Origin: Promethearchaeota archaeon Loki_b32
Lineage (GTDB): Archaea; Asgardarchaeota; Lokiarchaeia; Sigyniarchaeales; SOKP01
Direction of reading: 5' to 3'
Assembly (NCBI GenBank): GCA_005223125.1
Contig: NJBH01000008.1
Location: 1 to 64,000 of the forward strand
DNA length: 64,000 nt
Every line of letters begins with the position of its first letter. Positions within the stretch are counted from its first letter, which is position 1. A model generated the notes under the pieces. It was not told the origin of the DNA, made no database searches, and was given only the letters and a program-made list of their open reading frames with translations. Below are positions 49,029-52,196 of the stretch, in pieces. Both the position numbers and the translations under genes were made by a program.

Positions 49029-49082
49029 CAAATGAAAATACCGTTAAATTTTTAAAATCTTTTTACTATAATTTAAATATAA

Positions 49083-49227
49083 CGTGGATGTGGATGCTAT
49101 GAATAAAAATACTAAATTCTTAGGTTTTACACAAAATATGATTAAGATCATATCCACGATTATTATTATCTAAATTCATTTATTTGTGAAGTGAATTCTC
49201 GTAGCTTTTACTCCACATCCTACTTCA
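49083..49227 (+). promoter_or_regulatory. Competing RNA helices in the ileS upstream region
   Basis: Segment 1 (49083-49094, CGTGGATGTGGA) can pair with 49152-49158 (ATCCACG, 7 pairs), which lies inside the leader-peptide frame just before its four final Ile codons, or with 49212-49220 (TCCACATCC, 9 pairs). The two pairings share 49086-49089 and exclude each other. A further helix 49187-49192/49222-49227 (TGAAGT/ACTTCA) encloses the last segment. This is a layout like attenuators, but whether segment 1 is within the transcript depends on the unmapped start site. Confidence 0.4.
49099..49173 (+). CDS. Putative isoleucine-rich leader peptide of ileS
   Basis: A 24-codon frame from ATG 49099 to TAA 49173 begins MNKNTKFLGF and ends IISTIIII. 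Seven of 24 codons are Ile (ATT, ATC and ATA all used), and the last four before the stop are Ile. It lies 161 bases before the ileS start, in the same direction, with TATA-like TTTAAATATA about 20-28 bases upstream. Leader peptides rich in the cognate amino acid are a bacterial attenuation device; in archaea I know no established example. In AT-rich DNA a chance run of ATT codons is possible. Confidence 0.4.
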   Translation: MNKNTKFLGFTQNMIKIISTIIII

Positions 49228-49334
49228 TGAATAAATTAACTGAAATTGCGATATAAACTAATTGTGTTAAATAATTTTATTTTTAACATTTTTAAGTTAA
49301 ATAATTTAATGAACATAAAAAAATCTCAAGTAAG

Positions 49335-52196
49335 GTGTTAAATATTTCATATATTGAAAAAGAAAAAGAACTTATACAATTTTGGAAATATAATAATATA
49401 TTTGAAAAAAGTGTAGAGCAAAGACCAAAGAATAATCCATATATATTTTATGATGGACCACCTTTTGCAACGGGATTGCCCCATTACGGTCATATATTAA
49501 GTTTTGTAACAAAGGATGTATTTCCGAGATATTGGACAATGAAAAATCACCGTTGTGAGAGAAGATGGGGTTGGGATTGTCATGGTTTGCCAATCGAAAG
49601 TATCTGTGAAAGAGAACTAAATTTAAAGCAGAAAAATGAAATATACGAAATGGGTATTGCTGATTTCAATGAATTTTGTCGATCAAAAGTGCTTTGGTAT
49701 ACAACTGAATGGAAAAAAACTGTTGAACGAATGGGTAAGTGGATAGAGTTTGATAATTCTTATAAAACCATGGATAATACATATATGGAAACTGTGTGGT
49801 ATATTTTTAAGAAAATATACACCAAGGGGTTCGTGTATAGGGGAAAAAAAATACTGTTCTATTGTCCACGATGTGAAACTCCACTTTCTAATTTCGAGAT
49901 TTCGATGGATAATAGCTATAAAGATATTAGTGAACATTCTATAACAGCAAAATTCAAATTGATAGAAGAGCCAATGACATTTTTTCTTGCTTGGACCACA
50001 ACGCCTTGGACGTTAATTGGAAATGTAGCTTTAGCTGTAGATAGCGAGCGAGATTATGTTAAAATAAAATTTGATGATGAATATTTAATATTGATAAAAA
50101 ATCAATTAGATACAATCAAAAAAGACTATGAAATTGTTGATGAATTTAAAGGAAATGACCTAATTAATAAAGAATATGAACCATTATATCACATTTCTCC
50201 TGATACCACTAAAAAAGGGCACTTTGTTATTGATGGGGGTGATGAGGTATTATCTGATGAAGGAACAGGAATAATACACATAGCAATTTATGGGGAATTT
50301 GATTATGAAATGATAAAGAAACATGATTTAACTATAATTCAACATATTGATGAACATGGCAATCTGGCTCAGGGTCCGAGAGATTGGATTGGATTGTGGT
50401 TTAAAGATGTAAATGAAAAAGTCTTAGAGGATTTGCACCAACGGAACCTTTTATTTAGTTCAGAAGATTACACTCATTCTTATCCATTCTGTTATAGATG
50501 TGATACTCCCTTAATTTATAATGCTCTTGATGCTTGGTTTATAGATATTCAACGAATAAAACCAATGCTTCTGGAAACTAATGAAAGAATCAACTGGTAT
50601 CCTAAAGAGATTTCAAGAAGATATGAAAGTATAGTTAATACCGCTCCTGATTGGTGTATTTCAAGAAATAGATTTTGGGCTACTGCTATGCCTATTTGGG
50701 AATGTGAAGAATGTAAAAAAATTAAAGTCATTGGATCTATTAAAGAATTACAGGAAAATGCGGTTGAAGAGGTTCCTGATGATTTAGATCTTCATAGACA
50801 TATTGTTGATAAGATATATCTTAAATGTTCTAATTGCAGCAAAGTAATGAAGCGTGTACCTGAAGTATTTGACTGCTGGTTGGAATCAGGATCAATGCCT
50901 TATGCGGCAAAACATTACCCATTTGAAAATGTGGAATGGTTTAAGCATAATTTTCCAAGTGATTTTGTGTCTGAGTATGTCCCACAAGTTAGGGCGTGGT
51001 TTTACTACATGCATGCAATAGCCGTCCTGCTATTTAATGAAATCCCATTTAAAAATGTCGTTGTAAATGGCAATATACTCGCTGAAGATGGAACTAAGAT
51101 GTCAAAGTCTAAAAGAAATTTCCCCGATCCAAACCTAATGATTGAGAAATATGGAGCTGATGCTTTAAGAATATATCTTTTATCATCCCAATTGATGAGG
51201 GCACAAGATTTAAATTTTAAAGAGGAAATTGTAAAACAAGTTTACCGACGATTCAATTTATTGCTAATTAATGTTCTAAAATTCTATTCATTGAATGATA
51301 TTGATAACGTTATTATGGATATAACGCGTTCAGATAATATTTTAGATAAATGGATTGTCAGTTTATTGAATAGCCTTATACAGGACATTACGCAACTTAT
51401 GGATGATTATGACACAGCAGAAGTAAGTAGATTATTCTTCAACTTCATCGAGGATCTCTCCACATGGTATATTAAAAACAGCAGGAATCGATTTAAAAGT
51501 GAGAATATAAATGAAAAATTATCAGCGATGAACACATTGTCCTATATACTTTATAATTTATCAAAACTCTTAGCTCCTTTAACTCCATTTATATCAGAAA
51601 TAATATACCAGAAATTGATAGAGAAAGGGATTGCAAATTTTAAATCCGTCCATTTAGAGTTTTGGCCCGAGTTTGATGAGAAGTTGATTGATAGCGAAGT
51701 TCTAAAAAATATGGAACTAACAAGAGAAGTAGTAAAAAGATCCTTAGAATTAAGAGAGAATTCTAAAATTCCAGTTAGGCAGGTTCTAAATAAGGTTACA
51801 ATAAAAGGAGTAAATCTTGAAAAGAAATATTTAGATGTTATAGCAGAAGCTATAAATGTGAGAAATGTAAATATTGAAAAGGGAGAAGAGGTTGAATTTC
51901 TAGTAGAATTAGACACAATTATTACGCCAGAGTTGAAGTTAGAAGGAATTGCTAGAAACTTAATAAGACATCTGAATAATTATCGAAAAAAACTGAATCT
52001 ATCAACGAAAAATCGAATTAATTTATATTTAAAAACAAATGATAAAGATATTTCAGAAGCCCTTGAAAAACATAAGGAGAAAATAAAGAAGATGATACAA
52101 GCTGAAACAATCATTCAAAATATGGAAGGGAAGGAACATATAAAGAAGTTCAAAATTGAAAATAAAGTCGTTGAGGCATATATTGAGGTAAAATAA
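49335..52196 (+). CDS. ileS: Isoleucyl-tRNA synthetase
   Basis: A 953-residue class I synthetase. The HIGH motif appears as GLPHYGHILSFVTKD near residue 50, the KMSKS motif as GTKMSKSKRNFPDP near 588, and WGWDCHGLPIESICEREL and WFYYMHAIAVLLF are characteristic of IleRS. The editing domain contains AWTTTPWTLIGNVALAV and GTGIIHIAIYGEFDYEM. A CPRC and later CxxC pairs could bind zinc. It begins at GTG 49335, since no ATG is in frame upstream. It is followed by cysS after 80 bases. Confidence 0.96.
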   Translation: MLNISYIEKEKELIQFWKYNNIFEKSVEQRPKNNPYIFYDGPPFATGLPHYGHILSFVTKDVFPRYWTMKNHRCERRWGWDCHGLPIESICERELNLKQKNEIYEMGIADFNEFCRSKVLWYTTEWKKTVERMGKWIEFDNSYKTMDNTYMETVWYIFKKIYTKGFVYRGKKILFYCPRCETPLSNFEISMDNSYKDISEHSITAKFKLIEEPMTFFLAWTTTPWTLIGNVALAVDSERDYVKIKFDDEYLILIKNQLDTIKKDYEIVDEFKGNDLINKEYEPLYHISPDTTKKGHFVIDGGDEVLSDEGTGIIHIAIYGEFDYEMIKKHDLTIIQHIDEHGNLAQGPRDWIGLWFKDVNEKVLEDLHQRNLLFSSEDYTHSYPFCYRCDTPLIYNALDAWFIDIQRIKPMLLETNERINWYPKEISRRYESIVNTAPDWCISRNRFWATAMPIWECEECKKIKVIGSIKELQENAVEEVPDDLDLHRHIVDKIYLKCSNCSKVMKRVPEVFDCWLESGSMPYAAKHYPFENVEWFKHNFPSDFVSEYVPQVRAWFYYMHAIAVLLFNEIPFKNVVVNGNILAEDGTKMSKSKRNFPDPNLMIEKYGADALRIYLLSSQLMRAQDLNFKEEIVKQVYRRFNLLLINVLKFYSLNDIDNVIMDITRSDNILDKWIVSLLNSLIQDITQLMDDYDTAEVSRLFFNFIEDLSTWYIKNSRNRFKSENINEKLSAMNTLSYILYNLSKLLAPLTPFISEIIYQKLIEKGIANFKSVHLEFWPEFDEKLIDSEVLKNMELTREVVKRSLELRENSKIPVRQVLNKVTIKGVNLEKKYLDVIAEAINVRNVNIEKGEEVEFLVELDTIITPELKLEGIARNLIRHLNNYRKKLNLSTKNRINLYLKTNDKDISEALEKHKEKIKKMIQAETIIQNMEGKEHIKKFKIENKVVEAYIEVK

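Follow-up and report, generated by a model that had tools for sequence, protein, structure and literature searches.

The isoleucyl-tRNA synthetase gene (ileS) of the lokiarchaeal DNA analyzed here, a stretch of 64,000 nucleotides referred to as the window, is preceded by a conserved element that quite probably acts as a cis-acting leader-peptide attenuator, in which the ribosome is the sensor and ileS expression follows the availability of Ile-tRNA(Ile). Genome comparison established its components, i.e., a short leader ORF, a run of Ile codons and a set of RNA helices, as well as the tie of this element to one ileS lineage and the existence of Leu and Phe counterparts. On this comparative basis, sensing by the ribosome appears well supported.

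The isoleucine-rich leader frame

The ileS gene (49335..52196, plus strand; TIGR00392, 817 bits) begins with a GTG located 161 nt downstream of a leader ORF of 24 codons (49099..49173, plus strand; MNKNTKFLGFTQNMIKIISTIIII*), which contains seven Ile and ends in ATT ATT ATT ATC followed by TAA. The frame, its four terminal Ile codons and its distance to ileS are thereby exactly as described in the first-pass annotation. Immediately 5' of the leader start and overlapping it lies a mini-ORF (ATG TGG ATG CTA TGA, MWML*; window 49088-49102), present in most, not all, relatives. At the beginning of ileS (window 49335-49346), an ATT (49344 here) in nine genomes of the host genus aligns with the ATG of relatives and is preceded by GGTG at a distance of six nt; in G012, GTG TAA replaces the upstream GTG TTA. 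Since the ATT aligns with this ATG and G012 carries GTG TAA, an AUU start codon of ileS is possible.

A ten-row covariance model (R1) was applied to 228 genomes of the phylum and matched 18 of them with E values from 1e-33 to 7e-13, twelve in the host genus (g1) and six in a second genus of the same family (g13). Two weak additional matches in G044 and G171 (E 0.01-0.04), with no ileS there and no such ORF, were judged to be chance. An independent protein search found IleRS relatives of at least 69% identity in exactly the same genomes (partial in G004), the next relative being at 44%. As G004 is a one-contig assembly, contamination is unlikely. The element is thus present in every lokiarchaeal genome in which this ileS was found together with an intact upstream region (18 in total), a count that leaves aside G010, where the 3' end of ileS alone lies at a contig edge and the leader is not visible. 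The same 953-aa IleRS occurs in seven genomes of the host genus at 76-89% identity, and promoter, leader and helices form an island of conservation between diverging flanks. G002, G003 and G006 carry a different gene upstream, yet the leader remains with ileS, showing that the two stay together.

The leader ORFs of all 18 genomes are 20-24 codons long, and their terminal III or IIII is followed by at most one residue. The run of consecutive Ile codons, the presumed sensor, occupies 49159..49170 (plus strand) with four codons here and consists of three to four codons throughout, being preserved in 18/18 although neighboring codons vary. Most genomes of the host genus share the terminus Thr/Ala-Ile-Ile-Ile-Ile-stop; in G003 and G006 it reads Ile-Ile-Ile-Ile-Arg-stop, the four-Ile block being shifted by one codon and retained, and in g13 Ile-Ile-Ile is followed by Arg, Lys, Glu or stop. 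The aligned ORF body contains a single gap, which measures 12 nt. A strict test for the Ile run was passed by 17 of the 18 loci in comparison to 6% of shuffled sequences, and the same test applied to each of nine other amino acids was passed by none (0/18).

The first-pass annotation had raised the concern that AT-rich DNA yields ATT runs by chance. The genome is indeed A+T-rich; however, recovery by the R1 model in 18/18 loci, the 6% rate of shuffled controls and the match between leader amino acid and downstream gene in three genes answer this concern, and we rejected a chance ATT-rich ORF as hardly credible. The corresponding Leu leaders of leuS and Phe leaders of pheST described below render amino-acid attenuation far likelier than a chance run. 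A conserved small-protein gene with a function of its own, merely located upstream of ileS, would explain the conserved frame and length. Against it, large parts of the peptide vary, in contrast to the constant Ile run and RNA helices, and the frame occurs only with this ileS lineage, where it stays despite the different upstream gene in three genomes; we consider this reading very improbable.

Competing helices and the proposed switch

Both helices claimed in the first-pass annotation, 49083-49089/49152-49158 and 49086-49094/49212-49220 (9 bp), are present exactly, and the former can be extended to 49083-49093/49148-49158, partly by G-U pairs. Aligning the relatives revealed a third conserved hairpin (49180-49193/49221-49234) absent from that list. 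On the plus strand, the arrangement comprises segment 1 (49083..49096), the 5' strand common to both mutually exclusive helices and at the same time the region where translation of the leader ORF would initiate; segment 2 (49148..49158), located within the ORF directly 5' of the Ile codons and pairing with segment 1 (helix 1:2); segments 3 (49180..49193) and 4 (49221..49234), the two arms of the downstream hairpin 3:4; and segment 4' (TCCACATCC, 49212..49220), which can pair with segment 1 instead (helix 1:4').

Covariation was scored on an alignment of the 18 genomes built without structure. For helices 1:2 and 3:4, which RNAalifold recovered unprompted, 92.8% of the cells were paired and eight pairs had changed on both sides, whereas shifting the partners by one to three columns left 36-48% paired. 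Individually, helix 1:2 showed 95% paired cells with three pairs changed on both sides, and hairpin 3:4 showed 91% with five. Helix 1:4', paired in 99.4% of cells, varies little, with one double change and two changes from G-C to G-U, so that covariation argues strongly for 1:2 and 3:4 and thinly for 1:4'. In G136, all three strands are altered together (A replaces G in segment 1, and T replaces C in both segment 2 and segment 4'), which is suggestive of one strand having to pair with both others, although it is a single event. The comparison of relatives proposed in the first-pass annotation thus found frame, Ile run and helices conserved with covariation in 18 genomes of two genera.

A promoter-like block (ACCGTTAAATTTTTAAAAT, 49040..49058, plus strand) has a similar counterpart in 17 of the 18 genomes and is less clear in G136. 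This inferred promoter would place the transcription start near 49079, just 5' of segment 1. A second TATA-like stretch (AATTTAAATATAA, 49070..49082, plus strand), conserved as an A+T-rich motif, offers a rival promoter reading and, if used, would move the start to near 49103, within the leader ORF. A transcription start downstream of 49173 is argued against by the conserved promoter-like block and the covarying 5' segment.

The first-pass annotation had further proposed that a ribosome paused on the Ile codons blocks one of the helices, and this was reproduced by computation: with a simulated ribosome placed on either the first or the last Ile codon, helix 1:2 fell to zero and 1:4' reached 83-100% in all 18 genomes. 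A simulated ribosome initiating on segment 1 allowed hairpin 3:4 to form (mean 0.87 in g1 and 0.55 in g13). Unoccupied RNA at equilibrium prefers 1:4' (mean 0.60 in g1 and 0.82 in g13, in a program that cannot draw 1:4' and 3:4 together, a pseudoknot being possible); consequently, the off state presumably needs co-transcriptional folding in which 1:2 forms first. In the host genus, a ribosome at the stop codon resembles one on the Ile codons, as the footprint is nearly the same. With the Ile codons abutting the stop codon, the readout would be the dwell time of the ribosome rather than its position.

Leader translation, the response to starvation, the direction of control and the output step, as we infer them, would proceed as follows. 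With charged tRNA plentiful, the ribosome would complete the short leader and depart, whereupon segment 1 would pair with segment 2, the partner made first, hairpin 3:4 would form and ileS expression would fall. With charged tRNA scarce, the ribosome would wait on the Ile codons and cover segment 2; segment 1 would then pair with segment 4', hairpin 3:4 would be prevented or remodeled, and ileS would be expressed.

As for the output of this switch, premature transcription termination is the likeliest candidate. Hairpin 3:4 sits ~70-110 nt 5' of ileS, and the stretch between them is A+T-rich and poorly conserved. Within it, a T-rich tract (49275..49295, plus strand) represents a weak candidate termination site. 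A U run directly after hairpin 3:4, as in a bacterial terminator, was not found. The longest T run between hairpin and ileS measures 4-9 in g1 and 3-6 in g13; since the runs are shorter in g13, we dismissed a conserved U-tract terminator as weakly supported and place premature termination slightly above an even chance. FttA (aCPSF1) is possibly the termination factor, an orthologue being encoded in the host genome (876 bits). FttA prefers U-rich RNA, and its steric exclusion by a coupled ribosome has been hypothesized (PMC11616081).

The same sensor might instead act on the ileS mRNA itself, the stalled ribosome altering how it is translated or how stable it is. The lack of a conserved hairpin-plus-U-run terminator just before ileS and the weak T tracts of g13 speak for this output, and the distance of hairpin 3:4 from ileS is compatible with control of RNA decay. 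On the other hand, the intervening stretch shows little conservation, inspection by eye gave no conserved sequence complementary to the ileS ribosome-binding site, and the place of the element at the transcript 5' end fits early termination, so that we hold this alternative to be possible but rather unlikely. Masking of this site by segment 4' was considered and dropped, the two looking complementary to the eye in no more than a part of the g13 genomes.

Leucine and phenylalanine counterparts and the origin of ileS

A family-wide search revealed a Leu-rich leader (..LLAVLLLS*) before one leuS type (leuS-a) in 27/27 loci (L195-L221, e.g., G000:C37:41848, minus strand), starting at approximately -219 to -294; downstream of it lies a covarying hairpin with a conserved CTTTTTCTTTT tract in its loop. 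The gaps within the leuS ORF body measure 3, 6 or 9 nt, all multiples of three; being shared among relatives, they are not independent events. A Phe-rich leader (...SFFFKFFILPRE*) precedes pheST (L165-L194, e.g., G000:C71:7485, minus strand), where the upstream sequence sufficed at 27 loci and 20 of these passed a four-in-eight screen; among the remaining loci, one is masked and several carry a weakened version of the leader. A stricter five-in-eight test was passed by 26/27 leuS and 6/27 pheS loci. The Phe leader is followed by a nearly invariant GCCAAGGG/CCCTTGGC hairpin with little covariation, and a promoter-like CGAAAGATTTAAATA between this leader and the pheS start counts against the attenuation reading. 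A simulated ribosome on the last cognate codon abolished the hairpin in both systems (from 1.00 to 0.03 for Phe and from 0.34 to 0.00 for Leu). RNA models of the leuS and pheS elements matched 45 and 46 of the 228 genomes, respectively, all of the same family, with the strong matches at leuS and pheS.

No conserved cognate leader was found before valS, leuS-b, serS, proS, thrS, glyS, hisS, trpS, tyrS or the other ileS type (3-9 loci each, with gene names taken from profile matches and sequence rather than from a separate annotation per locus). Two further conserved ORFs were seen at synthetase-like genes, a 32-codon ORF (MKNTRAIPKHRKNKLKNNQY..) that is not Gly-rich, ~320 nt 5' of a glyS-like gene (L136-L138, L152), and a 45-codon ORF (MAEEGLKGKARRIKIMKIIDMVGYD..) 5' of a serS-like gene (L127-L129, L150).

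Weaker matches of the leuS model follow two further kinds of ORF. Branched-chain-rich ORFs (..LSIIILAVLII*) stand before an FrhB-like gene (L282-L285, L289, L300), which lies near methylmalonyl-CoA-mutase-type genes; in L289, the leader lies between mcmB-like and meaB-like genes. Val/Leu-rich ORFs (..GVVVLVVVL*) are found in L286-L288, L290, L291 and L301, with probable relatives in L292-L299, and precede a conserved ORF of 41-60 aa, which has a strong Shine-Dalgarno sequence and converges with an aminotransferase gene. In a search bearing on auxotrophy, genes of the leuA type (PF00682) were absent in G000, G002 and G128 and present in G006 and G007.

Leader RNA could also be bound directly by protein or tRNA, as in autoregulation by IleRS or in a T-box-like manner, with the ORF being incidental. 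Some synthetase genes elsewhere are autoregulated, and a conserved hairpin together with a long-range helix would suit such binding. We nonetheless regard it as improbable, because the Ile run is kept by a one-codon slide in G003 and G006, the leuS ORF gains and loses whole codons (gaps in multiples of three nt), the leader amino acid matches the gene in three systems, and five leader loci gave no Rfam match at E<=1 and the window none at the gathering threshold. Membership in the T-box or another Rfam family was likewise rejected, with no match in the window or the five leader loci, nor near the bacterial IleRS relatives examined.

In a tree calculated with FastTree only and containing long branches, the leader-bearing IleRS group together as a single clade within the Patescibacteria-type IleRS of bacteria, apart from the ~1048-aa IleRS type of the same order. 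The enzyme is thus apparently of bacterial (Patescibacteria-like) descent. A second IleRS is also encoded in G002, G003, G007, G126, G129 and G131. Neither an R1 match nor an Ile-rich ORF was found at the bacterial IleRS relatives or at other Asgard IleRS genes. Inheritance of the leader along with the bacterial ileS was therefore rejected; more likely, it was gained once the gene had been transferred.

We lean towards a Lokiarchaeia attenuation regulon in which Ile, Leu, Phe and probably Val/branched-chain leaders control ileS, leuS, pheST and a few metabolic genes by ribosome-dependent RNA switching coupled to archaeal termination. This regulon would have arisen apart from the bacterial systems and been fitted to a horizontally acquired ileS.

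Relation to known attenuation systems

Lokiarchaeia are relatives of the eukaryote ancestor and, if true, the proposed mechanism would imply that transcription and translation are functionally coupled in the lineage closest to eukaryotes. The leaders would offer a natural reporter for whether the ribosome shields RNA from FttA, and the ileS leader would exemplify a bacterial gene gaining regulation after its transfer. T-box riboswitches act at bacterial ileS, leuS and pheS, i.e., at the same aminoacyl-tRNA synthetase genes, where they respond to tRNA charging. They differ in binding tRNA without translation, and no match to the T-box family (RF00230) was obtained in the window, the leader loci or the bacterial IleRS relatives examined.

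In 2021, mechanisms of attenuation or antitermination were described as unknown in archaea (PMC8448881). This gap would be closed by a set of Asgard leaders cognate to three amino acids, and our search of the open-licence literature found no archaeal leader-peptide attenuation, although a report elsewhere may exist. Archaeal FttA/aCPSF1-dependent termination (PMC11616081, PMC8716108) could supply the output step, with leader-peptide control not being known for this process and its link to leader elements being our own suggestion.

The closest parallel is bacterial leader-peptide attenuation of the trp, his, leu, ilv and pheST type, and the likeness to it suggested in the first-pass annotation gains support from the conserved frame, the Ile run, the covarying helices and the Leu and Phe counterparts. 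Leader-regulated pheST is known in E. coli. Common to both are a short cognate-rich ORF before a gene for that amino acid and mutually exclusive helices of which a paused ribosome occludes one strand, here by computation. In contrast to the bacterial attenuators, the ileS element resides in an archaeal host, its Ile codons adjoin the stop codon, segment 1 precedes the leader start codon, and a sequence relation, judged by Rfam, is absent. Because a hairpin-plus-U-run terminator immediately 5' of ileS was tested for and not found, we do not file it as a bacterial-type attenuator and describe it as an archaeal element that appears to work like bacterial leader-peptide attenuation.
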